A stretch of 64,000 nt of DNA from contig JAEUJM010000027.1 of NCBI GenBank assembly GCA_016794585.1, forward strand, positions 1-64,000, given 5' to 3'. Positions within the stretch are counted from its first letter, which is position 1. Every line of letters begins with the position of its first letter. Position numbers and translations under genes: made by a program. Below the pieces are notes generated by a model that was not told the origin of the DNA, ran no database searches, and worked only from the letters and a program-made list of their open reading frames with translations. The DNA comes from Acidimicrobiales bacterium. GTDB taxonomy: Bacteria > Actinomycetota > Acidimicrobiia > Acidimicrobiales > DATDAH01. Shown here piece after piece: positions 518 to 24,186 of the stretch.

Positions 518-1735
518 TCAGAGTGCGTTCACAAGGCTGTGCAGGCTCCGATGGGCCACACGCTCAATGTCCATCCGACGAAAGCTATTGTCAATGAAGG
601 CGGCGTGCTGGCGCTCACAGGCGATGTGGTCGCAATAGGTCGCGCCGGCCGTCAGGTACATCATGTCGACAAGGTCATTGCTGACCCATTGCAGCTTGGG
701 ATCGCAGAGACGCTCATGGAGCACCTCGCGGAACAGTCCAAGGGCTGGCATATCGCGTAGGTCGGACTCGCTCTGGTGCAGCGTCCAATCAGACATCTCT
801 TCCAGGCGGAGGCCGGCGGCGTGTGCTTCCTCCGCGATCTCGGTGCCGAGATCGACGATGAACTTGGCATGGGTTCGCCGACGACGCATCTCGCGCTCCG
901 TCGGATTGTCCTTTAGGAACGTGGCGAAGCGTTGTAGCTCAGCTGCCCACCCAGAAGCTTCAGGCATGGGCACCGACTCGGCGTCGAGCAGGGTGTCGAC
1001 CATGCCCCCCACGGCAGATATGGCGGTGACAACCCAGCGCGCGTCAGCGGGAAGGCTGGGATCGGGCTCAAACTCTGCTTCCCGTCTGGCCGAGTGCATG
1101 GCGTTCGGTTCGAGCGTGACGGCCGGCGGTTGCAGCAGGCAGACATCTTGGTAGCGCAGGGTAAGCACGCGGCGAAGTTCGAGCCTGCGAAGCGCAAGCG
1201 GGTCACGCAGCTGCCAGCCAGCGGAGAGCTGAGACATCGTGAGCGCCCGCTGGTAGCGCTCCTCGGGATCGACTTGCTTGCAGGTCTCCGAGACGTGTCC
1301 GGCCGACAGCGGCAGGATCAACTCATCGGCGAGCACCATGGCGATCAGGCGCTCGGCAGCGATCCGCTCGTCCTGGTTGGGTACCCGTTCCGGCGAGTGG
1401 ATGGTCTTGCTCAGAGTGCTCCAGTGGTTCTGATCAAGGTAGATAGCCGGTCGGCCACGACGCGGTGCGAGGTCGTCAGCCGCCGGAACCTCGAGAACGA
1501 TGTGATTGCCGTGAACGGTCTCCAGCCACAGACGCAGAAGGGCGGGAAAGTAGGTCGAGGACGCGATCGCACTCGACGCAAGGAACGGCGTACGACCCAT
1601 CGGGGCACTTGCGATGCGGCCATCGACCAGGGCAACCCGCATGGTTCCGTCGCCGTTGACCTGCATGGCGTGCACAGCGTCGAGGGCGCCGCTGTAGTCG
1701 ACCACATCGCCGCTCAATGCCGAGGCCGTCGTCAC
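518..1735 (-). CDS. PIN-like nuclease domain protein
   Basis: The gene encodes about 405 aa. Its GTG start overlaps the TGA of the upstream gene as GTGA, which is why this start is preferred over an ATG at 1759. A PIN-like fold is suggested by IYLDQNHWSTL around residues 100-110 (the first acidic position of the LDxN type) and by a C-terminal stretch with AxxxYLTAGATYCDHIACE, typical of the final strand and acidic residues of PIN ribonucleases. About 100 N-terminal residues precede the PIN part and are not recognised. PIN proteins cleave RNA and are common as toxins or as effectors of defence modules. Translational coupling to an AbiV/HEPN-like gene and an HTH gene supports a role in a regulated module. 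The substrate and any active role are inferred. Confidence 0.6.
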   Translation of the reverse strand: MTTASALSGDVVDYSGALDAVHAMQVNGDGTMRVALVDGRIASAPMGRTPFLASSAIASSTYFPALLRLWLETVHGNHIVLEVPAADDLAPRRGRPAIYLDQNHWSTLSKTIHSPERVPNQDERIAAERLIAMVLADELILPLSAGHVSETCKQVDPEERYQRALTMSQLSAGWQLRDPLALRRLELRRVLTLRYQDVCLLQPPAVTLEPNAMHSARREAEFEPDPSLPADARWVVTAISAVGGMVDTLLDAESVPMPEASGWAAELQRFATFLKDNPTEREMRRRRTHAKFIVDLGTEIAEEAHAAGLRLEEMSDWTLHQSESDLRDMPALGLFREVLHERLCDPKLQWVSNDLVDMMYLTAGATYCDHIACERQHAAFIDNSFRRMDIERVAHRSLHSLVNAL

Positions 1736-2589
1736 AGCTCGCCCAGCTCCTCTCGCCACCAGCGCTCCTCCTGTACCTGCCTGACGGCCATGAGGTCGGC
1801 GCGGCTGACCGGATCCTCCTTCACCTCAAGCCCCATCATCGGGAATGTCCAGAAGCTCCGCACGATCTCGATGTCGCGCGCATCGACAGGCGTCTCCACG
1901 AACTGCGCCGCCAGAACCAACGACTCGTCAATCCGGGGTAGCAGCTCCTGGTAGTGCGTGTCGTCCTTCAGCTCGAAGCCCGACCAGATGTCGGCCAGTG
2001 CGGCCAGCGTCTGCGGTGCCGTCAGCCCCGTCCGGTGCAGTGCACCGACCAACCGTGTCGAGGTGGGTGAGACGCTGAGGCTCAGACGGTCGTACACGTC
2101 AGGTGCCCACCACTCCAGGCCGTTCTCACCGTCCACCAGGTCGACGTACAGCAGGCTCTCACGACGGCTGATCAGCTCATTCCGGAAGATCCAGTCGAAG
2201 TCTCTCGGGCCGTCAAGGTAGTGGCTTGCCCGCATCGACTCCACGTAGCCAGCGACCTCGCCGAACGTAGCCGGACTGCCGCTGTGGGCCTCCGCGTAGA
2301 TGTGCTTGGCGAGATGAGAACCCGCCCGACGCAGCTGCTCACGAACGGTTTCACGATCCTGCTGATCGAGCCGGGCTGCGTCGAGCAGGATCAGAAACTT
2401 GCCAGCTTCCTCGGTGGCCGTGATGCCGAGTAACGACGCCGCTCTCCCAGGCACATGCTCGGCGAGGCTGTCATGCGCCGCCTCAAGCGCCACGACGTGT
2501 TCATGGATGATGCTCAGGCCCTCAGCGAGCTTGGCCAGCCGTTGCCCTACTGGAACGTCAGCAAGTCGGCCAAACTGGCGGGTCTTCAC
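1732..2589 (-). CDS. AbiV/HEPN-like abortive-infection family protein
   Basis: The protein is about 285 aa. The GTG start at 2589 shares a GTGA overlap with the stop of the HTH gene, favoured over an in-frame ATG 42 nt upstream. The first 120 residues are helical and contain GITATEEAGKFLILLDAARL-type sequence, which matches the EE.GK core of the AbiV family, followed by a GSHLAKHIYAEA segment like the family's conserved His/Lys helix. AbiV in Lactococcus blocks phage translation. The rest of the protein, rich in Trp and acidic residues, is not recognised. It sits in the middle of a three-gene coupled unit with a PIN-like nuclease directly downstream. Membership of AbiV is judged by eye only. 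A more general HEPN-type helical protein is the alternative. Confidence 0.5.
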   Translation of the reverse strand: MKTRQFGRLADVPVGQRLAKLAEGLSIIHEHVVALEAAHDSLAEHVPGRAASLLGITATEEAGKFLILLDAARLDQQDRETVREQLRRAGSHLAKHIYAEAHSGSPATFGEVAGYVESMRASHYLDGPRDFDWIFRNELISRRESLLYVDLVDGENGLEWWAPDVYDRLSLSVSPTSTRLVGALHRTGLTAPQTLAALADIWSGFELKDDTHYQELLPRIDESLVLAAQFVETPVDARDIEIVRSFWTFPMMGLEVKEDPVSRADLMAVRQVQEERWWREELGEL

Positions 2590-2822
2590 ACCACATAGGT
2601 AAGCCCACGAGCCACCGCGCCGGGATCGCAATACAGCCCGTAGCCCAGCCTAAGGATGTGCAGGCTGACGTTGCCCCGCCCGCGTTCGAGGTGCCCAACG
2701 AATGTCCCGTGGAGCGCGGCGAGCTCCGCCAGTCCTTCTCTCGGCCTGAGATCGAGCACCCACGGCGCTGGCGGCTTCGGACGGCCCGGAGCAACACCGG
2801 ACGGGCGGTCGTCATCGGGCAC
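2586..2822 (-). CDS. Small XRE-like HTH protein, degenerate first helix
   Basis: The protein has 78 aa. Residues from about 30 onward (GLAELAALHGTFVGHLERG, then RGNVSLHILRLGYGL) align with helices 2-5 of XRE/Cro repressors, including the ERG-NxSL signature. Compared with the usual motif, about four residues of the SQEELA stretch are missing in helix 2, so DNA binding may be altered or lost. The stop codon overlaps the start of the AbiV-like gene as GTGA, making this the first gene of a coupled operon and the likely autoregulator. The 213 bp upstream hold no gene and could contain its operator, but no clear palindrome was found. Confidence 0.5.
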   Translation of the reverse strand: MPDDDRPSGVAPGRPKPPAPWVLDLRPREGLAELAALHGTFVGHLERGRGNVSLHILRLGYGLYCDPGAVARGLTYVV

Positions 2823-3035
2823 CTACGACTTGGCCTGGAGGCCGACCACGATCACATCGGGCGCGAGTCGCAGCCCCCGGTCCAGGGGTGAAGGCGGCGG
2901 CCCGCTAGCGGCGGGCCATGATGGCGTGCCGCTGCGCAGGCCAGCGTTGCGTCCCAGAGTGTCAGTTCGAGAGAGTTCGATCAGTGGACCTAAGCGCGCT
3001 GTTCTCGAACCCAGTGGATCCGAACCCTCTCGGCG

Positions 3036-3437
3036 GTGAAAAGACCGCCACAGGACGCCGAGGCCGAGGTCGAGGGGCCCCGCACTAGACGTGTCAAGCA
3101 GGTGCAGCGTCGCTTGACGCCCGACGAGGTGGCTGACCTGCTGCGGCGCTACCAGGCCGGCGAGACCGCCGAGCTGCTGGCGGCTGCCTTCCAGATCCAC
3201 CGCACCACCGTGACCGGTCATCTGCAGCGGCATGGCATCCAGCGTCGTGGTGGCGGACGCCGTGTGCTCGCTGCCGACGATGTCCGGGTGGCCGCTGAGC
3301 TCTACGAAACCGGGCAGTCTCTCGCCGGCATCGCTGGGCAGTTCGATGTCCACCACACGACGGTGGCCAAGGAGCTACGCCAGGCCGGCGTTGAGATTCG
3401 ACCTCGACCGGGTTGGCTTGCTGGCCGGCCCGGCTAG
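3036..3437 (+). CDS. Double helix-turn-helix protein, serine-recombinase C-terminal type
   Basis: The protein is 133 aa from a GTG start. It contains two successive Hin/resolvase-type HTH units. The first is around residues 27-65 (LTPDEVADLLRRYQAG, then FQIHRTTVTGHL) and the second around residues 80-120 (VLAADDVRVAAELYETG, then FDVHHTTVAKEL). These resemble the DNA-binding tail of serine recombinases, where they read the recombination site. No catalytic Ser domain lies upstream in any frame, so this is either a stand-alone HTH protein or the surviving tail of a recombinase. A GTG at 3093 is an alternative start that would remove only a charged leader. Confidence 0.6.
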   Translation: MKRPPQDAEAEVEGPRTRRVKQVQRRLTPDEVADLLRRYQAGETAELLAAAFQIHRTTVTGHLQRHGIQRRGGGRRVLAADDVRVAAELYETGQSLAGIAGQFDVHHTTVAKELRQAGVEIRPRPGWLAGRPG

Positions 3438-3489
3438 AGCAGCTCGGAAGTATCCCACTCGCTGTCCCAGGACGGGGCGCGTGGGGTCC

Positions 3490-3723
3490 TCAGTCGTCTG
3501 CAGCCGCGTCTTCGCCGACGAGGCGCTGCGCTTCGTAGAACTTCGCGATCGCCTCGCTGCCTTCCCACCGCTCGTTCAGCCAGTTGTCGATCAGCGGTTC
3601 GACGAGGGCCTGGATGGAGGTGCCCGACACGCTGCTGGCTGCCTTGAGCAGGCGGTAGCGACTCGGCTCGAGCCGAATCATCACTTCCTTCTTCTTTGGG
3701 CCTTGGCGGCGGGGACGGACCAT
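3490..3723 (-). CDS. Ribbon-helix-helix (CopG/Arc-type) DNA-binding protein
   Basis: The protein is 77 aa. After a basic leader, residues 12-45 (KKEVMIRLEPSRYRLLKAASSV) have the strand-helix-helix pattern of ribbon-helix-helix repressors: a short beta strand with alternating residues, then two helices. The acidic C-terminus could contact a partner. Such small proteins are commonly antitoxins or plasmid copy regulators. Its gene diverges from the unknown gene at 3758, with only 34 bp between them, so it may control both. No toxin partner is recognised beside it. Confidence 0.6.
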   Translation of the reverse strand: MVRPRRQGPKKKEVMIRLEPSRYRLLKAASSVSGTSIQALVEPLIDNWLNERWEGSEAIAKFYEAQRLVGEDAAADD

Positions 3724-3757
3724 CGAGCCTCAATTGTGTTACACTTATCACTGATAT
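3724..3757. promoter_or_regulatory. AT-rich divergent promoter/operator region
   Basis: This 34-bp gap separates two divergent genes and is strikingly AT-rich for the region. It contains the 9-bp palindrome GTGTTACAC at 3736-3744, a plausible site for the ribbon-helix-helix protein encoded to its left. The plus-strand gene has no visible ribosome site and may be leaderless. Promoter boxes cannot be assigned with confidence. Confidence 0.35.
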
Positions 3758-4078
3758 ATGCAAGACAGTAACACTCCGAACGATGCGCGGCCTTGGCCGG
3801 CGAGCGAAGAGGACCGGCGCTGGTTCGCCCGCGTTGAGATCGAGTTCCCCGCCGGGGTCAGTCGGCACCCTCAGCTGCCGGTGCTCGTTCAAGACCGAAT
3901 CGAGCGGACATCGGTGATCGACCTACGCGCCGCGGGGGTAGTCGTCGGCTTCGTCATCGAGCACGCGACTGACGCTGAAGCCGCTGACGAAGTCGGTGCT
4001 GTCGCCAGCGATCTTGTCGGGTTCCTTCAGCTACCCGAAACCTCGATCGTCGTGCTCGAGGTCCATCCGGCTGCTTAG
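3758..4078 (+). CDS. Hypothetical protein
   Basis: The protein is 106 aa and acidic, with no signal peptide or membrane segment. It starts with a short polar leader, then FARVEIEFPAGVSRHPQLPVLV, and continues as an alternating alpha/beta-like sequence ending in EVHPAA. No family is recognised. It is divergently arranged with the ribbon-helix-helix gene and probably shares its regulation. The start ATG lies in an AT-rich region without a clear ribosome site. Confidence 0.5.
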   Translation: MQDSNTPNDARPWPASEEDRRWFARVEIEFPAGVSRHPQLPVLVQDRIERTSVIDLRAAGVVVGFVIEHATDAEAADEVGAVASDLVGFLQLPETSIVVLEVHPAA

Positions 4079-7117: not shown

Positions 7118-7363
7118 CTATCGCTTGTCCCGCGGCGGGAACGGGTCGTTGCCTGGAGCGACGGTGTCGCTGTCGCGGATCCGGCCATCAGTGCGGTGGA
7201 TGACGACTTCACCGCCCCCGCCGTTGCCTACGATGTCGCGGGCTCGGTCGATGGCTTCGGCTTGGGTGTCAAAGTGACCCGATGACCGCTGAGCGCCGGG
7301 AGCGCGGATATCCCAGCCGCCGTCGCTGTTCGGCACCACGTGCCGTTCATTACGTGGACTCAT
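7118..7363 (-). CDS. DUF2188 family protein
   Basis: The protein is 81 aa. The ATG at 7363 is preceded by GAGAGG at a suitable distance and begins right before the domain. The sequence HVVPNSDGGWDIR, then AQAEAIDRARDI-like and GGGEVVIHRTDGRIRDSD, ending in DPFPPRDKR, is a textbook DUF2188 domain, a short two-strand/helix unit of unknown function frequent in bacteria. The same frame is open upstream to a GTG at 7591 that touches the stop of the sigma-like gene (TAGTG), giving a possible 157-aa product with a 76-aa extension. The shorter form is preferred because of its ribosome site and the family's usual length. Confidence 0.7.
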   Translation of the reverse strand: MSPRNERHVVPNSDGGWDIRAPGAQRSSGHFDTQAEAIDRARDIVGNGGGGEVVIHRTDGRIRDSDTVAPGNDPFPPRDKR

Positions 7364-7590
7364 GGTACTACCTCTCGTGTTGTTGGATTGGGGTTGTGTC
7401 CTCGCATTGGGAATAGGTGCCCCTGGAGCGAATTCGTCGCGGGCTCCGGCAGAAACCTCGTGAAGCGGTGTACTGACCTGGCTGATGATCTCGGCCACCA
7501 CGTCGGGTGGCGTGCGACGGGCGAGCCGGCGGACGCCGACCCGGCCAAGCGACGAACGCGCGATGATCGACTCGATGGGTTCGTGTTTCA

Positions 7591-8373
7591 CTATCGATGC
7601 TCCTCACGCTGCAACCGATGCCAGCGCGACTTGGCCGCCGAGACGGACAGCCCGGTCAGGGTGGCGATCTCTTGCCAGCTGTAGTTCTGCGCCCGGCAGA
7701 ACACCACGGCGCTGGTCGTTGGGTCGAGGGAGTTCAACATCTCACGAGCGTGCAGACGGAGCAGCACAGTGGCCTCCGGAGACTGGCTGAGGTAGCTAGA
7801 CCGGACGAGTTCGTCGGACAACTCAGCCACGTCCTGGTCGAGGCGAAGAGCTGCGTCATCATGAAGACGCTTCGCTTCGGGCAGCCACCGGCGCCAGACG
7901 TTTGGGAAGCGCACTAGGCACTGCCCTATGAAGAAGGTCGACAAGCTGGCGCCTCGGCCCGGATCCCACCGGCCCGGGATCAGGACGGAATCGCGAAAGT
8001 GTCGCAGCGCGATCGTGACCGTCTCCTTCGCCAGGTAGTCAGCGTCAAGCTGTCGTTGCCGCCGGTCGAACCGCTCGAGACGGAAGCCCTTGGCCTGGCA
8101 GCGCTCGAAGATGACACCGGTGCTGATCCAGGCACCGATCACCCGCACCCCGTAGCCGACGAGGCGCTCCGCGATCTTGTCCCAGTCTCGGCCCTGGTAG
8201 TTCGCCCACATTGCACGCTCGACTAGGCGCTTGTCGGCCTCCAGCTCGGCCAGACGTCGAGTGGCCTCGCTATCCGAGAACTCGGCCAGCCAGGCTCCCG
8301 GCACCGCTCTCGGACCGCGGTTCTCCGTTGTAGTGTCCGCTTCTTCGGGCTGCTCCTGCGAGGCGGGCTGCAT
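7591..8373 (-). CDS. Sigma-70-like factor (region 2 and region 4 helices)
   Basis: The protein is 260 aa. Residues around 125-160 (WDPGRGASLSTFFIGQCLVRF) match the conserved region 2 helix that contacts core polymerase and the -10 element. The C-terminus (YSWQEIATLTGLSVSAAKSRWHR) is a region 4 HTH as in ECF-type sigma factors. The long N-terminal extension and loose region 2 make it an unusual member, possibly a sigma-like regulator rather than a working sigma. It heads a same-strand series with the DUF2188, 49-aa, WHQHILD and HEPN genes. No anti-sigma gene is seen. Confidence 0.6.
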   Translation of the reverse strand: MQPASQEQPEEADTTTENRGPRAVPGAWLAEFSDSEATRRLAELEADKRLVERAMWANYQGRDWDKIAERLVGYGVRVIGAWISTGVIFERCQAKGFRLERFDRRQRQLDADYLAKETVTIALRHFRDSVLIPGRWDPGRGASLSTFFIGQCLVRFPNVWRRWLPEAKRLHDDAALRLDQDVAELSDELVRSSYLSQSPEATVLLRLHAREMLNSLDPTTSAVVFCRAQNYSWQEIATLTGLSVSAAKSRWHRLQREEHR

Positions 8374-10831: not shown

Positions 10832-11488
10832 TCAGTCGCGGTTCTGCCACGTGCAGACGCAGGCCTCGTTGCCGTCGGCGTCGGCGAGGATCCACCACGA
10901 GGGCGCGAAGGCGTCGCTGACCAGCCGGCCGCCGGCGGCCAGCGCCGCGTCCCGGCGAGCCTCGGCCTCGTCGTGGGGGACGATCACGTCGAGGTGCATC
11001 CGGTCGCGTTCGGTGCGGGGCTCGTCCATCTGCTGGAACCACATCGTCGGCCCGGTGCCCCGGGGGTCGACCAGCTCGTCCTTGCGCCGGCGGTAGCCGA
11101 GGATGGCCTCCCAGAAGGGCCGGATGCGCTCGGCGTCCATCGTGTCGATGGCGATCTCGAGCACCTGCACCGCGTGGGGCTCGGGGGTGGCGCCCGCCTC
11201 CTCGGCCAGCTGGGAGATGGTGCGGGCCAGTGCGATGTCAGCGTCGGACAGGCCGCCGATGGCGTGGGTGGTGAGCGCGACGTGCACGCGCCCCGGGTAG
11301 CGCAGGTCGACGTCGGGGTGGTGGTCGGCGGCGTCGGCCGCCTCGGCGATGGCCTGCACGAGGGCGGCACCGGCCGAGAACCCGGGGGCCACGAAGTCCC
11401 CGTGGAGGGCGTAGACGAGCACCCGCCAGTCGCCCAGGGTCGGGTCGGCGGCGATCTCGGCCGGCGTCACGGGGGTGTAGGAGGCCAT
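10832..11488 (-). CDS. Pterin-4a-carbinolamine dehydratase fused to a glyoxalase-like domain
   Basis: The protein is 218 aa from ATG 11488; a longer reading adds a basic leader. Residues 20-100 resemble pterin-4a-carbinolamine dehydratase: the HHPDVDLRYPGRVHVALTTHAIGGL signature with its conserved His pair, followed by DADIALARTI. Residues 110-218 form a VOC/glyoxalase-like half (VLEIAIDTMDAERIRPFWEAILGY, then DVIVPHDEAEAR and SWWILADADGNEACVC). Fusions of these two small domains are common in actinobacteria. The dehydratase half would recycle the pterin cofactor of aromatic hydroxylases, but the true substrate here is unproven. It reads toward 10,820 and is separated from ctaF by a hairpin. 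Confidence 0.75.
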   Translation of the reverse strand: MASYTPVTPAEIAADPTLGDWRVLVYALHGDFVAPGFSAGAALVQAIAEAADAADHHPDVDLRYPGRVHVALTTHAIGGLSDADIALARTISQLAEEAGATPEPHAVQVLEIAIDTMDAERIRPFWEAILGYRRRKDELVDPRGTGPTMWFQQMDEPRTERDRMHLDVIVPHDEAEARRDAALAAGGRLVSDAFAPSWWILADADGNEACVCTWQNRD

Positions 11489-11554
11489 GGTTCCAGTCAA
11501 CCACCCACCCGGCCGGCGCCGCCGGGGCACCGTCGTCCGAGCCATGCCATACCC

Positions 11555-14727: not shown

Positions 14728-15621
14728 TCAGTCGGTGAACTCGAGGCCGCGGGGGAGGGGGGCGGTGGTGAGGGCGGCCACGAGGGAGTTGGCTTCCTCC
14801 TCGTCGATGTCGCCGCTGATCTGGATGTCGACGCGGGTGAACTCCTCGTCCTTGACCCGGGGTGCCATCAGCACCACCCGGTCCAAGGCGATGCCGGCGA
14901 GGCCGGAGTCGCACGGTGACTCGCGCCGCTTGCAGGCGCCGGCCATCTCGTTGAAGGCATCGATGCCATCGAAGGTGAGCACGAGGTCCACGGCGTAGTC
15001 GTCGTCGCGGTCCCCGTCCTGGTCGGGTGCGTTGACGGTGACCGTGGCGCGTTCGACGGCGGCGTTGGTGACGCCTCCCGGGGCGAGCGCGTAGCAGGCG
15101 ACGATCTCGCCTTCGTCCTCGCCCGTCGTGGCGAGCTCGGGGTAGAGCGCGTCGTCGTCGGCGCCCTGGGCGGTCGGCGGGTCCTCGCACTGGCGGACCC
15201 CGGGCTGGCGGCGCACCGGGCGGATCTCGAGGCGTCCGGGCTCGGCCAGCAACTCCTCGATGGCCGGTCGGGCCAAGGGGCCGTCGCCGGGGTCGACGCG
15301 CACACCGGCGCCCTCGGGCACCCCGAACGCGGCCGTGTGGCCGGCGGCCGCCAGCCGGAGCTCGATGGCGTCGGCCAGCTCGGTCAGGTCGACGCCGCTG
15401 TTCTCGCCGGCCGAGACCACGAACGTGCCGTCCGGCACTGGCTCCGGGGACTCCGGCTCGACCGGCGCCTCGAGCACCGGCTCCGCCGCCGCCACCGTGG
15501 TGGTGGTGGGTGGTGGGGTCGAGGCGTCGCCGCCACCCCGCAGCTCGACGAAGGCGGCGATCAGCACGATCACCGGGAAGGTGCCCACCATCACCTTCCA
15601 CGCCGGCCACTGCCGGTTCAT
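14728..15621 (-). CDS. SecD P1-head-like exported protein
   Basis: The protein is about 297 aa. ATG 15621 is chosen because the membrane anchor (WPAWKVMVGTFPVIVLIAAFVEL) follows directly. A Thr/Pro linker leads to an outer domain. Its second half (GRLEIRPV, ALYPELA, YALAPGG, then VDIQISGDIDEEEANSLVAAL and PLPRGLEF) resembles the P1 head region of the protein-export factor SecD. The six-helix membrane part of SecD is absent, so it cannot be a working SecD and may be a binding domain reused for another purpose. It stands alone between ctaC and a divergent cyclase fusion. Confidence 0.5.
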   Translation of the reverse strand: MNRQWPAWKVMVGTFPVIVLIAAFVELRGGGDASTPPPTTTTVAAAEPVLEAPVEPESPEPVPDGTFVVSAGENSGVDLTELADAIELRLAAAGHTAAFGVPEGAGVRVDPGDGPLARPAIEELLAEPGRLEIRPVRRQPGVRQCEDPPTAQGADDDALYPELATTGEDEGEIVACYALAPGGVTNAAVERATVTVNAPDQDGDRDDDYAVDLVLTFDGIDAFNEMAGACKRRESPCDSGLAGIALDRVVLMAPRVKDEEFTRVDIQISGDIDEEEANSLVAALTTAPLPRGLEFTD

Positions 15622-15689
15622 CGCCCGCCCGCCTGGCACCGCATGGCGCCACGGTACCTGCGCCGGCGGCCTGGCCTAGCGTGCGGCCC

Positions 15690-17009
15690 ATGGGGCGGAC
15701 CGGCACGGTGAGCGTGCTCTTCACCGACATCGTGGGCTCGACCGAGCTGCTGGGCCGGCTCGGCGAGCGGGACTACGACGAGGTCCGCCGCCGTCACTTC
15801 ACCGCGCTCCGCAAGGCGCTCGCCGACCACGACGGCACCGAGGTGAAGAACACCGGTGACGGCCTCATGGCGGTGTTCCGCAGCGCGGTCGACGCCGTGG
15901 AGTGCGCCGTGGCGATGCAGCGCGAAGCCCGCAACGTCATGACCGAGGGCCGGTCGGTGGCCATGCGGGTCGGGCTGTCGGCGGGCGAGGCCACCGAGGA
16001 GCAGGGCGACTGGTTCGGCGCGCCCGTGGTCGAAGCGGCCCGCCTCTGCGCCGCCGCCGGCACCGACGAGGCATGGGCCTCCCGGATCGTCGCCGTGCTG
16101 GTCGGCTCGCAGTCCGAGGTCCAGTTGGTCGAGGTCGGCCCCCAGACCCTGAAGGGGTTCGACCAGCCCGTCGACGTGGTGCGAGTCGAAGCGGCGGAGT
16201 TCGGGCGGGGCACGATGTACGCCGAGGTGGCCGCCCACGCCGGTGACCTCGGCCGGCGCCTGGTCGCCCAGCTCGACTACTGGGAGACCGTGCCCGGAAT
16301 CCAGCAGGTGCGAGCCGAGGTGCTCGCCCGGCTCGGACCGAAGCCGGGTGACGTGATCGCCGACATCGGCTGCGGGGCCGGCACCGAGCTGATCCGGCTG
16401 GCACACCTCGTGGGGGCCGATGGCACGGCCATCGGAGTGGACCCGAGCGAGCCCATCCTGGAGGAGGCGGGTCGCCGGGCCGCCGATCAGAGCGTGGCCG
16501 TCGAGCTGGTGGTCCGCGACGGGCGCGACACCGGCCTGGCGGACGGGCGGTGCGACGCCGTGCGCTGCGAGCGGGTCGTCCAGCACGTCGGTGACGTCGG
16601 CGCGCTGGTCGACGAGGCCCGCCGCATCACCCGCCCCGGGGGGACGGTGGTGCTCGCCGACACCGACTGGGGCAGCCTGATGATCCACCCGGGCGACCCC
16701 GACCTGGTGCGGCGCATCAAGGGTCGCATGGAGGGTGGCCCGATGGCGCAGCCGTGGGCGGGCCGGCTGCTCCCGAAGGCCCTGCACGACGCCGGCCTCG
16801 TCGACGTGTCCCATCGGTTCTTCGCGGTCGATGCCCAACCGGGGGTGATGCTCGCCGTCTCGCCGGTGCTGGGACGCATGGTCGAGAACCGCGTCGCCGA
16901 GCAGTCCGAGCTCGACGGGCTCATCGCCGAGCTGGCGGAGGCGTACGCCGCCGGCGTCGGCGTCTGGGCCTTCACCATGGTGGTGGCCTCGGGCCGCGTC
17001 CCCGACTGA
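15690..17009 (+). CDS. Class III nucleotide cyclase fused to a SAM methyltransferase
   Basis: The protein is 439 aa from ATG 15690. Residues 5-170 form a class III adenylate/guanylate cyclase domain: FTDIVGSTELL with metal Asp13, VKNTGDGLMAVF with Lys53 and metal Asp57, and AARLC with Arg118. At the usual transition-state Asn (VNxAAR) there is Val114, so activity may be weak or altered. Residues 185-439 are a class I methyltransferase with ADIGCGAGTELIRLA (motif I, about 223-237), GVDPSEPIL and VQHVGDVGALVDEARRITRPGG. No membrane segment is seen. Linking cyclic nucleotide synthesis with methyl transfer in one chain is unusual. The methyl acceptor is unknown. Confidence 0.8.
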   Translation: MGRTGTVSVLFTDIVGSTELLGRLGERDYDEVRRRHFTALRKALADHDGTEVKNTGDGLMAVFRSAVDAVECAVAMQREARNVMTEGRSVAMRVGLSAGEATEEQGDWFGAPVVEAARLCAAAGTDEAWASRIVAVLVGSQSEVQLVEVGPQTLKGFDQPVDVVRVEAAEFGRGTMYAEVAAHAGDLGRRLVAQLDYWETVPGIQQVRAEVLARLGPKPGDVIADIGCGAGTELIRLAHLVGADGTAIGVDPSEPILEEAGRRAADQSVAVELVVRDGRDTGLADGRCDAVRCERVVQHVGDVGALVDEARRITRPGGTVVLADTDWGSLMIHPGDPDLVRRIKGRMEGGPMAQPWAGRLLPKALHDAGLVDVSHRFFAVDAQPGVMLAVSPVLGRMVENRVAEQSELDGLIAELAEAYAAGVGVWAFTMVVASGRVPD

Positions 17010-17027: not shown

Positions 17028-17936
17028 TCAGCGGGCGCCGGCGGTCCGGCGGGCGTCGTCGGCGGCGTCCAGGCGACGGGCCTCGCGCTCGTCGGCGCGC
17101 ATCCACTGGTAGGCGACGATCCCCACGAGCACGACGCCGAGGAGGTCGCCGATCCCCCACATGAGGGCGGCCCCGGTGCGCTGGTCGGCCAGCGGTGACG
17201 CGCCCCAGTCGCGGCCGAGGCCCAGGTACCAGTCGGCGGCGACAGGCTCGCCGGCGCTGAGCAGGGCCAGGCCGAGCACGGCGTGGAAGGGCACGAGCAG
17301 CACCACCAGCAGCAGGCGCACGGGGTAGGCGAGCTGGCGCCCCGCCCGGGTGCGGCCCCACCCCGGGTCGAGGCCGATCACCGCCTCCGCGAACAGGCAG
17401 CCCACGACCAGCAGGTGCAGGTGCACCCAGCTGTGGACCACGCCGTTGCGCAGGGACAGCTCGTAGAGGTCGGTCAGGTACAGGCCGAGCATCGACGTCC
17501 CGAACAGCAGCCAGGCCGTCAGCGGGTGGGTGAGGAATCTCACGACCGGGTGCTGGAACACGCTGATCTGCCACCGTTGCGTGGGCCGGTGAGCGGCCTG
17601 GACGGCGAGGGTCATCGGCGCGCCGAGCACCAGGAGCAGGGGCGCCACCATGCTCAAGAGCAAGTGCTGCACGGCGTGCACGCTGAACAACGTGGTGTCG
17701 TAGCGGGCAAGGCCCGACTGGGTGGCGACCAGCACGACCGCGAGGCCGACCGCGAACGACACCGACCGGCCGGTGCGCCAGTGCCGACCGTGGTCGGCGA
17801 GGCGGCGCACCCCGACGACGTACCACCAGCCCGCGACGAGGGTGAGGACGAGCGGCACCGGGTCGAGGGTCCACCAGGTCGCGAGCCTCGCCGCGGACAG
17901 CGGGGGGACCACCGCCACCAGTGGACACCAGGGCAC
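17028..17936 (-). CDS. ctaG: Cytochrome c oxidase assembly protein, CtaG (caa3_CtaG) type
   Basis: The protein is 302 aa with about seven or more membrane helices. It carries the family hallmark FSVHAVQHLLLSMVAPLLLVLGAP near residues 85-108, and later VHSWVHLHLLVVGCLFAE and LVPFHAVLGLALL. These His-containing helices suggest a copper or heme role, and the family is needed for oxidase assembly or copper delivery in Bacillus and actinobacteria. It lies between ctaCDF and ctaE, which supports the assignment. The first 20 residues are uncertain because several GTG starts are possible. Confidence 0.85.
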   Translation of the reverse strand: MPWCPLVAVVPPLSAARLATWWTLDPVPLVLTLVAGWWYVVGVRRLADHGRHWRTGRSVSFAVGLAVVLVATQSGLARYDTTLFSVHAVQHLLLSMVAPLLLVLGAPMTLAVQAAHRPTQRWQISVFQHPVVRFLTHPLTAWLLFGTSMLGLYLTDLYELSLRNGVVHSWVHLHLLVVGCLFAEAVIGLDPGWGRTRAGRQLAYPVRLLLVVLLVPFHAVLGLALLSAGEPVAADWYLGLGRDWGASPLADQRTGAALMWGIGDLLGVVLVGIVAYQWMRADEREARRLDAADDARRTAGAR

Positions 17937-20395: not shown

Positions 20396-21801
20396 GCGCC
20401 GAGGCCGAGGTCGAACCCGGCGGCGCGGAACCCGACGACGCCGCCGGCCCGAAGGGGTCCCGCGCCGGCCGGACCATCCGCTGGTTCGACGATCGCCTCG
20501 GCGTCGCCCGCACCGGCCGCACCCTGCTCGACAAGATCTTCCCCAACCACTGGTCGTTCCTGCTGGGCGAGATCGCCCTCTACTCCTTCATCGTCCTGTT
20601 GGCCACGGGCGTCTACCTCACCTTCTTCTTCGACGCCTCCGCCGCACCGGTCACCTACGACGGCAGCTACGCCCCCCTCCAGGGCGTGCAGGTGAGCGCG
20701 GCCTACAACTCGGTGCTCGACCTCAGCTTCGACGTGCGCGCCGGCCTGATGATGCGCCAGGTCCACCACTGGGCGGCCCTGCTCTTCCTCGCCGCCATCG
20801 TCGTGCACATCTCCCGGGTGTTCTTCACCGGCGCCTTCCGCCGCCCCCGCGAGATCAACTGGGTGGTGGGCTGCACGCTGCTGGTGCTCGCCCTGGGCAA
20901 CGGCTTCGCCGGCTACTCGCTCCTCGACGACCAGCTCTCGGGCACGGGCATCCGCATCGCCGACTCGGTGATCCTGTCCATCCCGGTGGCCGGCACCTGG
21001 ATCTCGTCGCTGCTGTTCGGCGGCGACTTCCCGGGCACCGAGATCATCCCCCGCCTCTTCATCATCCACGTGCTTTTGCTGCCGGCGGCCATCGTCATCC
21101 TCCTGGCCGCGCACCTCGGCATCCTCGTGCGCCACAAGCACACGCACTTCGCCGGCGACGGCGCCACCGAGGACAACGTGGTGGGCGAGCGGGTCTGGCC
21201 CACCTACGCGGCCAAGGCCGGCGGCGTCTTCTTCCTCACCGCCGCGCTCCTGTGCCTGCTCGGGGGCCTGTTCCAGATCAATCCGGTCTGGCTCTTCGGG
21301 CCCTTCGAGGTCGAGAACGTCAGCTCGGCCAGCCAGCCGGACTGGTACATCGGCTGGCTCGAGGGGTCGCTGCGGCTCATGCCGCCGTGGGAGATCAGTC
21401 TCGGCGACTACCTCATCCCCAACCCGTTCTTCCCCGGCGTGCTCCTGCCGGGGGTCACGTTCCTGCTCCTCTACGCATGGCCCTGGATCGAGGCCCACTT
21501 CACGAAGGACCACGCGCCCCACCACATCCTCGACCGGCCCCGCGACCGGCCGCTGCGCACCGCCCTCGGCGTCGCCACCTTGACCTTCTACGTGGTGCTG
21601 TTCGCCGCCGGCGCCACCGACGTGCTGGCCGTGACCTTCGGCCTCTCGGTCAACCGCATCGTGTGGACCTTCCGGGCGCTGCTCCTCGTGGCCCCGGTGG
21701 CGGCCGCCTTCGTCGCCAACCGCCTGTGTCACGAGCTGCAACGCCGTGATGGCCCCGTCGTGGCATCGGTCGAAGCGGCGGCGGAGGCCGCCGCGCCCTA
21801 G
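20392..21801 (+). CDS. qcrB: Cytochrome b subunit of the bc complex
   Basis: The protein is 469 aa from GTG 20392. Eight or nine membrane helices are visible. Heme b ligands lie in VHHWAALLFLAAIVVHISRVF (a His pair 14 apart) and in FIIHVLLLPAAIVILLAAHLGILVRHKH. The quinol site has the actinobacterial form of the PEWY motif, PDWY (in SQPDWYIGW). It holds the menaquinol oxidation site and both b hemes. It is the last gene of the operon, and its TAG stop overlaps that of the convergent coiled-coil gene by the palindrome CTAG. Confidence 0.97.
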   Translation: MSAEAEVEPGGAEPDDAAGPKGSRAGRTIRWFDDRLGVARTGRTLLDKIFPNHWSFLLGEIALYSFIVLLATGVYLTFFFDASAAPVTYDGSYAPLQGVQVSAAYNSVLDLSFDVRAGLMMRQVHHWAALLFLAAIVVHISRVFFTGAFRRPREINWVVGCTLLVLALGNGFAGYSLLDDQLSGTGIRIADSVILSIPVAGTWISSLLFGGDFPGTEIIPRLFIIHVLLLPAAIVILLAAHLGILVRHKHTHFAGDGATEDNVVGERVWPTYAAKAGGVFFLTAALLCLLGGLFQINPVWLFGPFEVENVSSASQPDWYIGWLEGSLRLMPPWEISLGDYLIPNPFFPGVLLPGVTFLLLYAWPWIEAHFTKDHAPHHILDRPRDRPLRTALGVATLTFYVVLFAAGATDVLAVTFGLSVNRIVWTFRALLLVAPVAAAFVANRLCHELQRRDGPVVASVEAAAEAAAP

Positions 21802-22343
21802 CCCTGCCCGGCCTGGAAGGCGGTGTAGGCGAGGCCGGCGATCCCGATCAGCGTCGTGATGAACGCGAAGTAGAAGACCCGGACCTGGGCCCCGATCTCC
21901 CCTCGGAGCAGGCCGAGCTCGGAGAGCATCCGTCCTTCCATCTGGACGATCCGGTTCTCGAGTTGCCCGATCCTGTCCTCGAGTTGCCCGATCCTGTCCT
22001 CGAGTTGCCCGACCCGGTTCTCGAGTTGCCCGACGCGGTTCTCGAGTTGCCCGACCCGGTTCTCGAGTTGCCCGACCCTGCCCTCGAGGACGACAAAGCG
22101 CCCATCCAGCCCGGTGAAGTCAGAGCGCAGCTCGGCGAGCTGCTCGTGCACGTCGGCCCGCAGCTCGGTCATCTCGTTGCGGAGCTCGGCTCGGACCAGC
22201 TCGATGCGCAGTGTCAGCCGCTCCTCGAGGCCCTGGAGATCGACCGCGTCCAAGCCGGCCATCAGCAGGTCGGCTCCCCGGTTCCCGAGCGCATCGCGCG
22301 CCAGCTCTCGTAGTTCGTCACGTTCTGCAGCACTGATCGACAT
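21798..22343 (-). CDS. Coiled-coil membrane protein with heptad repeats
   Basis: The protein is 181 aa from ATG 22343, which follows a GGGAG ribosome site. Residues 40-150 are a long coiled coil whose core is a seven-residue repeat (RVGQLEN or RIGQLED) repeated about seven times in perfect register. A C-terminal helix (VFYFAFITTLIGIAGLAYTAF) anchors it, leaving a long rod in the cytosol. The pattern resembles small CCDC90/DUF1640-type proteins, but that is loose. The stop overlaps qcrB by 4 bp, so the two mRNAs are antisense at their ends. Its role is unknown. Confidence 0.7.
   Translation of the reverse strand: MSISAAERDELRELARDALGNRGADLLMAGLDAVDLQGLEERLTLRIELVRAELRNEMTELRADVHEQLAELRSDFTGLDGRFVVLEGRVGQLENRVGQLENRVGQLENRVGQLEDRIGQLEDRIGQLENRIVQMEGRMLSELGLLRGEIGAQVRVFYFAFITTLIGIAGLAYTAFQAGQG
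21957..22082. repeat. Six tandem 21-bp repeats encoding a heptad
   Basis: Six units of 21 bp begin at 21957, 21978, 21999, 22020, 22041 and 22062, each starting CTCGAGTTGCCCGA. They differ by one to three bases and a partial seventh follows at 22083. Each unit encodes one coiled-coil heptad, so copy-number change would lengthen or shorten the rod without breaking the frame. Confidence 0.9.
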
Positions 22344-22443
22344 GGGTTCGCTCCCGATGTTCGGTGGTTCCATCGGGGAGCGATGACGGTCGGCTCCCGA
22401 GCCGTGGCCGGAGGGTAACCCGGCGCCACGGCGAAGGGAAGGG

Positions 22444-24186
22444 TCAAGCAGGGCGGTCGACGAGGGCGATGAGGGTGTCGTCGGCGCCCACCTCGGAGGG
22501 CGCACGGCGCAGGTGGACGCCGCCGCTGGCGGTCACCGTGGCGAGCAGCACGGCACCGGCGGGCAGCGGCGCGGTGACCTCGCACACCACGGCACCGGCG
22601 GCGTGGCGTCGCCCGAGGTCGTCGCGCGATGCGTGCCCGCGGAACGCCGGCGCGGTGGCCCGCAAGGGGGTGAGGCCCTCGACCGCCTCGGGTGCCTCCC
22701 GAGGGACGGTGAGGACGTGGCGGCGGCCGAAGCGCTCGACGAGATCGGGCTCGAACAGGGTGAGGGGCACCCCGTGGTCGAGCGAGACGATCGCGCGCGC
22801 CGCCGGAGTGGTCTCGATGGCCTCGCGTACTCGGTGCACCCCGTCGGCCAAGGAGACCGTGACCACCGACTCGGGACGCTCGTCCGGCGCGAGAGGCGTG
22901 GTGGTCACCAGCAGCACGTCGACCCCTGCGCCACTGAGGCAGGCGGCGAACGCCCGCAGCCAGGGGTCGTCGCCCACGAGGGTGACCCCCGTGGGCGCAG
23001 GCTCGGCCACCCCGAGGCCTTTGGCCACGGCCTTCGCGGTGAGGCCGTAGATCAGCCCGCAGCCGAGGATCACCCCGAAGGTGACGGGAAGGAGGAAGTC
23101 GGCCTCGAAGCCGGCGGCGTTCAGCGACACGGTGAAGGTGGTGGCGGTGGCCGCGGCCACGACGCCGCGCGGGTCCATCCAGGCGATCATGGCCCGGTCC
23201 CGCCACGGCACCTGGGTCCGCGCCAGGGAGGCCGCGACCGTGATCGGCCGCACCACGAGCACCAGTGTGACGGTGATGCCGACGACGGGCCACAGGTAGC
23301 GGCCGAGGTCGTCGAGTTTCACCAGCGCACCGAGGGTGATGAACAGGGTGCCGATGATCAGCACCTCGAGGGTCTCGCCGAAGCCCTGGATGCGGTCGGT
23401 GGCGACGGTGCGTTGGTTGGCCACGAGCACCCCCATGGCCACGGTCGCGAACAGGCCCGCCTCCGAGGCCAGGAGCTCGGCGACCGCGTACGCGCCGGCG
23501 GCCAGCATCAGCGCCACCGCCGCCTCCATGTCGTCGGTCAGCCAGAACCGCGACATCAACGCGATGAGGACGAGCGCGGCGACGGTGCCGGCGGCGACCC
23601 CGATCACGAACCGGCCGCCCATCCCGACACCAGGGTGGATGCCTCCCCGGTCGGCGGCGAGCACGAGGTTGAGCACCATGACGCCGACGGTGGCGCCGAG
23701 GGGGTCGAGGGTGGTGCCCTCCCAGCGCAGGATGCTGGCGGTCGGGTGGCGGGGCCGGACGACGTCGAGCAGGGGGCCGACGACGGTGGGACCCGAGACG
23801 ACCAGCACCGCGCCGGCCACGATCGCCAACTGCGGGTCGACGTCGAGGAAGAGCAGGGCGGAGGCCACCGCGCCGGCCAAGGTCACGGCGAGGCCGATCG
23901 TCACCAGGCGGATGACCGCGCCGGTGGCTTCGGAGGGCAGGTCGGCGAGGCGGAGCTGGGTGGCGGCCTGGAACAGCAACAGGGCCACGAGCAGGGTGAC
24001 GAGCGGGCTGAGCAGGTCGCCGAAGAGCTCCTCCGGCTTCACCAGGCCGAGCACGTCCCCGGCCAGCAGCCCGGCGGGCAGCAGGAGCAGCAGGGACGGG
24101 ATGCCCACCCGCCGGGCGATCCACTGGGCCCCGACCCCGAACACGACGATGGTCGCGAGCCCGATGGTCGCCTCGTCGGCGCTCAC
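22444..24186 (-). CDS. CPA1-family Na+(K+)/H+ antiporter with C-terminal regulatory domain
   Basis: The protein is 580 aa from a GTG that overlaps the stop of the upstream gene (GTGA). Residues 5-390 contain about 12 membrane helices of the NhaP/CPA1 type, including FQAATQLRL, the unwound VSGPTVVGPLLDVV segment and the WMDPRGVVAAATATTF block. After residue 395 a soluble part (VTLVGDDPWLRAFAACLSGAGVDVLLVTT) resembles an RCK/TrkA-N-like nucleotide-binding fold, followed by a TrkA-C-like end. It would exchange monovalent cations for protons at the inner membrane. Ion preference cannot be read from the sequence. Confidence 0.85.
   Translation of the reverse strand: MSADEATIGLATIVVFGVGAQWIARRVGIPSLLLLLPAGLLAGDVLGLVKPEELFGDLLSPLVTLLVALLLFQAATQLRLADLPSEATGAVIRLVTIGLAVTLAGAVASALLFLDVDPQLAIVAGAVLVVSGPTVVGPLLDVVRPRHPTASILRWEGTTLDPLGATVGVMVLNLVLAADRGGIHPGVGMGGRFVIGVAAGTVAALVLIALMSRFWLTDDMEAAVALMLAAGAYAVAELLASEAGLFATVAMGVLVANQRTVATDRIQGFGETLEVLIIGTLFITLGALVKLDDLGRYLWPVVGITVTLVLVVRPITVAASLARTQVPWRDRAMIAWMDPRGVVAAATATTFTVSLNAAGFEADFLLPVTFGVILGCGLIYGLTAKAVAKGLGVAEPAPTGVTLVGDDPWLRAFAACLSGAGVDVLLVTTTPLAPDERPESVVTVSLADGVHRVREAIETTPAARAIVSLDHGVPLTLFEPDLVERFGRRHVLTVPREAPEAVEGLTPLRATAPAFRGHASRDDLGRRHAAGAVVCEVTAPLPAGAVLLATVTASGGVHLRRAPSEVGADDTLIALVDRPA

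Follow-up and report, generated by a model that had tools for sequence, protein, structure and literature searches.

A rare, conserved fusion of a class III nucleotide cyclase and a SAM-dependent methyltransferase in an Acidimicrobiales bacterium

The window analysed here, the whole stretch of 64,000 nucleotides from an Acidimicrobiales bacterium, encodes a real, rare and conserved two-enzyme protein, in which a class III nucleotide cyclase domain is followed by a class I SAM-dependent methyltransferase and active-site residues are present in both halves. As shown in Table 1, the gene is a single frame of 439 codons plus stop, with the ATG at 15690, the stop codon at 17007-17009 and no internal stops. 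The initial annotation had read it as a cyclase followed by a complete class I methyltransferase, and this order was borne out by the single frame, by the families PF00211 and PF08241 and by the fold models. Both component families were already known, and what appears to be new is their order. Class III cyclases are joined to many known partners, other enzymes among them. A methyltransferase as such a partner was not found in the open-licence literature, and none is named in the available parts of an actinobacterial cyclase survey (PMC2447327).

Table 1. Features of the fusion gene, in window coordinates
Feature	Position	Strand	Basis
Cyclase-methyltransferase fusion gene, 439 aa	15690..17009	+	Single ORF; full-length relative L048/L077 53% identical
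Class III nucleotide cyclase domain, residues ~3-168	15696..16193	+	PF00211; model and PDB matches Ma1120, Rv1900c
Metal Asp13 (FTDIVGST)	15726..15728	+	Conserved in L048
Specificity Lys53	15846..15848	+	Alignment including L048
Metal Asp57 (GDG)	15858..15860	+	Alignment including L048
Second specificity residue Asp107	16008..16010	+	Alignment including L048
Val114 replacing transition-state Asn; Ile in L048	16029..16031	+	Alignment
Transition-state Arg118	16041..16043	+	Alignment including L048
Short variable linker	16194..16217	+	4/17 aligned residues (169-186) identical between the two fusions; pLDDT <50 at 171-202
Class I SAM-dependent methyltransferase, residues ~177-439	16218..17006	+	PF08241 and others; model pLDDT 91.8; stand-alone relatives align over whole length
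SAM-binding motif I, IADIGCGAG region, residues 223-231	16356..16382	+	Invariant positions in 30-row alignment

Chance, an assembly artefact and a frameshift are ruled out as the origin of the frame by the second full-length fusion, which lies in another genome. When the methyltransferase half was searched against 296 genomes of the class, the best non-self match by far (G105:C10, E 8.3e-79, 52% identical) fell in a frame in which the cyclase half is present too, at 59% identity. The contig of this second fusion (JAIOPC010000009.1, from a MAG) was the only one among the 80 loci of a pattern scan to match both halves in one frame. The cyclase domains of the two fusions were sisters in a 78-row tree (support 100/96) built with complete rows and, from the pattern scan, with Val/Ile rows only (see below), and so were their methyltransferase domains in a 30-row tree (support 100/99); the sister placement of both halves fits a single fusion event.

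A survey of the domain order, as proposed in the initial annotation, recovered the fusion at full length in 2 of 397 genomes of the order, 2 of 396 of the phylum and 2 of 395 of the class, always the same two with the source genome included; in the family to which the second copy belongs, 1 of 221 genomes has it. Likewise, among 174 cyclase-bearing frames in the loci cut for the domain alignment described below, the two fusions were the only ones that also match a methyltransferase profile; the genome surveys scored four candidates in the genomes listed and the contig scan used two cyclase-half peptide patterns, in such a way that fusions of other cyclase or methyltransferase subfamilies could be missed. 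Identity between the two proteins is concentrated around the motifs, with 44/53 residues identical in the cyclase motif windows against 52/111 elsewhere (as high in 1 of 164 circular shifts, true register included) and 47/70 against 89/192 in the methyltransferase (3 of 262 shifts, again with the true register), a comparison weakened as a test of conservation by the windows having been picked after inspection of the alignment.

The N-terminal half matched Guanylate_cyc (PF00211) at residues 3-156 with 41.7 bits (cut-off 21.9), and the score above the family cut-off, the right fold and the two metal Asp place it among the class III cyclases. Five of the six canonical cyclase residues (Asp13, Lys53, Asp57, Asp107 and Arg118) are present in both fusions, presumably with the metal, specificity and transition-state roles usually assigned to them. 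The available passages of PMC4215837 agree with these roles. Asp13, Lys53, Asp57 and a Val at the place of the transition-state Asn are all as first described; Asp107 and Arg118, absent from that earlier list, are also present, so the specificity pair Lys53/Asp107, of the ATP type, is complete.

The cyclase part of the full-length model has pLDDT values mostly of 90-98, and its top fold matches were Rv1900c, CyaC and Ma1120 (5d0e_A, TM(target) 0.94, rmsd 1.3), with a TM(target) of 0.94 also against the ATP-bound Ma1120 (5d15_A). Ma1120 from Mycobacterium avium (PDB 4wp3, 4wp8, 4wp9, 5d15, 5d0e) is the nearest solved cyclase by sequence too; as far as the passages available on it go, it keeps the Lys, Asp and Arg and has the Asn replaced, by Ala and not Val, and its solved constructs, of 171 to 210 residues, have no methyltransferase. 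LipJ (Rv1900c), a bifunctional lipase/adenylate cyclase, also joins a class III cyclase to an unrelated enzyme in one chain, whereas its partner is an N-terminal alpha/beta hydrolase instead of a C-terminal methyltransferase. Among NCBIfam models the cyclase half scored highest with LipJ, at 68.2 bits against a cut-off of 800 and with no match beyond the cyclase part, which leaves the fusion outside the LipJ family.

The residue at position 114 bears on whether this half makes cyclic nucleotides or only senses nucleotides. In 177 distinct cyclase domains, a set biased by the 80 loci from a scan whose patterns included Asp13 and Lys53, the residue at the Asn position is Val in 41, Asn in 38, His in 36, Gln in 29, Ile in 20, Asp in 4 and Thr in 2, with a gap in 7. 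Without the pattern-scan loci there are 64 domains, the window's own and its relative L048 counted among them, and the other five residues are all kept in 44/46 domains with Val or Ile, 11/14 with Asn and 2/4 with other residues (58/61 of the Val/Ile domains in the whole, pattern-biased set). Judging from these alignments, Val or Ile is normal at the Asn position within this subfamily. Drift after a loss of function would hardly spare the metal, base and Arg residues, which makes an inactive cyclase less likely. According to the available passages of PMC4215837, Ma1120 has adenylyl cyclase activity with Ala in place of Asn, and its A164N mutant shows a drastically lowered, nearly abolished activity; those of PMC4886424 report His at this place in Rv1900c and conclude that the Asn is unnecessary for the cyclase.

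The reading of a cyclase dead owing to Val114 is rejected on the subfamily conservation and on Ma1120, and these data are a further reason not to infer a dead cyclase from a missing transition-state Asn by itself. The initial annotation had proposed production of a cyclic nucleotide coupled to, or replaced by, nucleotide sensing that controls methylation; production is the more likely reading, since domains with Val/Ile as a rule keep all five other residues and Ma1120 is active with Ala, and the argument from Val114 for lost catalysis fails on the same grounds. A member of the Val/Ile subfamily with measured activity was not found in the literature searched. The N-terminal half is probably, on its residues and predicted fold, a homodimeric adenylyl cyclase.

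The likeliest alternative is a methyltransferase gated by nucleotides, with a cyclase domain that binds ATP or GTP and dimerises with negligible turnover, in such a way that the nucleotide or its product switches methylation. In its favour, the residue lost with Val114 is one on which most cyclases rely, the metal and base-recognition residues, which a sensor would also require, are kept, and an effector follows the domain on its C-terminal side, as it does in the cyclase-AAA_16 protein. Against it, the Arg118 equivalent is kept in 46/46 Val/Ile domains of the 64-domain set, and the transition-state Arg is needed for turnover and not for binding. As the Asn is moreover dispensable in Ma1120 (in the passages cited above), we consider such gating unlikely.

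The C-terminal half matched Methyltransf_11 (PF08241) at residues 225-321 with 64.3 bits (cut-off 21.2), and four further Methyltransf families, PF01209 and PF01135 were also above their cut-offs; in NCBIfam, no model reached its cut-off for this half among the 25 matches listed. Its Rossmann-like fold, a motif I with D225, G227, G229 and G231 (D51, G53, G55 and G57 of alignment A3) invariant in 30/30 rows and an acidic post-motif I residue, D251 (Glu in L048), identify it as a class I SAM methyltransferase. The domain is complete with helices at its N-terminus and a C-terminal part, as in stand-alone relatives, which align over the whole length, and modelled separately it reached a pTM of 0.89 with the pLDDT given in Table 1. 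Nearest by sequence and fold are Methyltransf_11/UbiE-like small-molecule methyltransferases (RebM, MitM, PMT), which share the class I fold and the SAM motifs; most of the PDB matches act on small molecules (phosphoethanolamine N-methyltransferase, RebM, MitM, OxaG, GtmA), and every solved chain among the 50 matches listed is less than 25% identical to this half. By analogy with these, the C-terminal half may be of the small-molecule type, the acceptor class being a guess. Among the nearest stand-alone relatives is the first of two different class I methyltransferase genes (893-1696 and 2102-2944, reverse strand) that lie near each other at locus L049, in a genome of the class.

We give a probability of about one half to the reading of the fusion as a bifunctional protein, with an active adenylyl cyclase and a small-molecule methyltransferase in one chain. 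The Val/Ile-subfamily domain, otherwise N-terminal in cyclase-AAA_16 (STAND-like) regulators, would form the usual head-to-tail homodimer, Asp13 and Asp57 would hold the metals, Lys53 and Asp107 would choose ATP, and Arg118 would stabilise the transition state without the Asn, with cAMP as the expected product. The methyltransferase half would occupy the position of the relatives' AAA module, so that the cyclase dimer would bring two methyltransferases together and, as a guess, either half could determine what state its partner is in. A further step, in which the nucleotide state of the dimer sets the methyltransferase, or the cyclase reads the state of SAM or of a metabolite, is tentative and has odds well against it; if the halves do communicate, the cAMP or ATP state would be tied to methylation within one chain. 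The 15 cyclase and 8 cNMP-binding matches in the source genome make cAMP signalling plausible. Among the points against the bifunctional reading is the extreme rarity of the fusion, for which a joining that is dispensable or neutral would account as well.

The full-length model (pTM 0.49, residues 171-202 with pLDDT <50) did not place the halves and supports no interface between them. It was built from alignment A6, without methyltransferase fragments, which explains the poor methyltransferase half in it; alignments A2 and A5, with methyltransferase rows misplaced onto the cyclase half, were dropped.

A methyltransferase acting as the input, with SAM, SAH or the acceptor setting the cyclase activity and the methyl-donor or metabolite state reported as cAMP, would agree with the conservation of both active sites and with the control of most class III cyclases by a partner domain. 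By contrast, the partner here is C-terminal and the input domain of known cyclases is mostly N-terminal, and we regard this alternative as distinctly improbable. A neutral gene fusion, with two unconnected enzymes each working as if alone, would suit the short variable linker, the missing predicted interface and the rarity and yet is very improbable, since two lineages have kept the halves joined and the active sites of both intact over ~47% divergence.

The bifunctional reading also has a possible history. The closest cyclase domains, with identities of up to 52% and mostly in long open frames, are N-terminal, belong to the Val/Ile subfamily and are assigned to actinobacterial cyclase-AAA_16 regulators. 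The one scanned for families, the closest relative in the source genome (49% identical), carries AAA_16 C-terminally, compared with a methyltransferase here, and the Pfam search found no AAA family in the fusion protein. The simplest reading of these sequences is that, downstream of a cyclase of this type, the AAA module was replaced by a methyltransferase.

Independent fusions suggested by tblastn ranges to residues 330 and 323 at two loci (L128 and L137) were discarded, as at both the methyltransferase is encoded by a gene of its own after the cyclase gene. At L137 a LipJ-like hydrolase-cyclase gene (1670-3274) is followed 3 bases on by the methyltransferase gene (3278-4069) on the same strand, and L128, from Modestobacter excelsi, has an order similar to that of L137, with the methyltransferase at 7136-7981. 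Adjacent methyltransferase genes as a general link were also rejected, with two same-strand cases among 110 cyclase frames having 1 kb downstream, judged at or below chance without a measured background.

The fusion gene is flanked by two genes on the reverse strand, ctaG (17028-17936), convergent with it, and a divergent, lone SecDF-P1-like gene (14728-15639; SecDF P1-head, 25.4 bits with a Pfam cut-off of 27), which has ctaC on its other side. Of the four regions taken from relatives, three have ctaG, ctaE and qcrCAB together and the fourth has only a ctaG match, and the fusion gene had no match in any of these regions (0/4); an operon with the cytochrome oxidase cluster was rejected on this ground. 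The neighbours of the second fusion differ from those in the window, and as the oxidase genes also cohere alone, the neighbourhood names no pathway or substrate. Elsewhere in the window, a reverse-strand gene (21798-22505) encodes a 235 aa protein that contains a series of almost identical repeats of seven residues (GQLENRV) and is probably a coiled coil, with no Pfam family at cut-off, and another (10832-11545, reverse strand) combines a pterin-4a-carbinolamine dehydratase domain with a glyoxalase-like one in a single protein.
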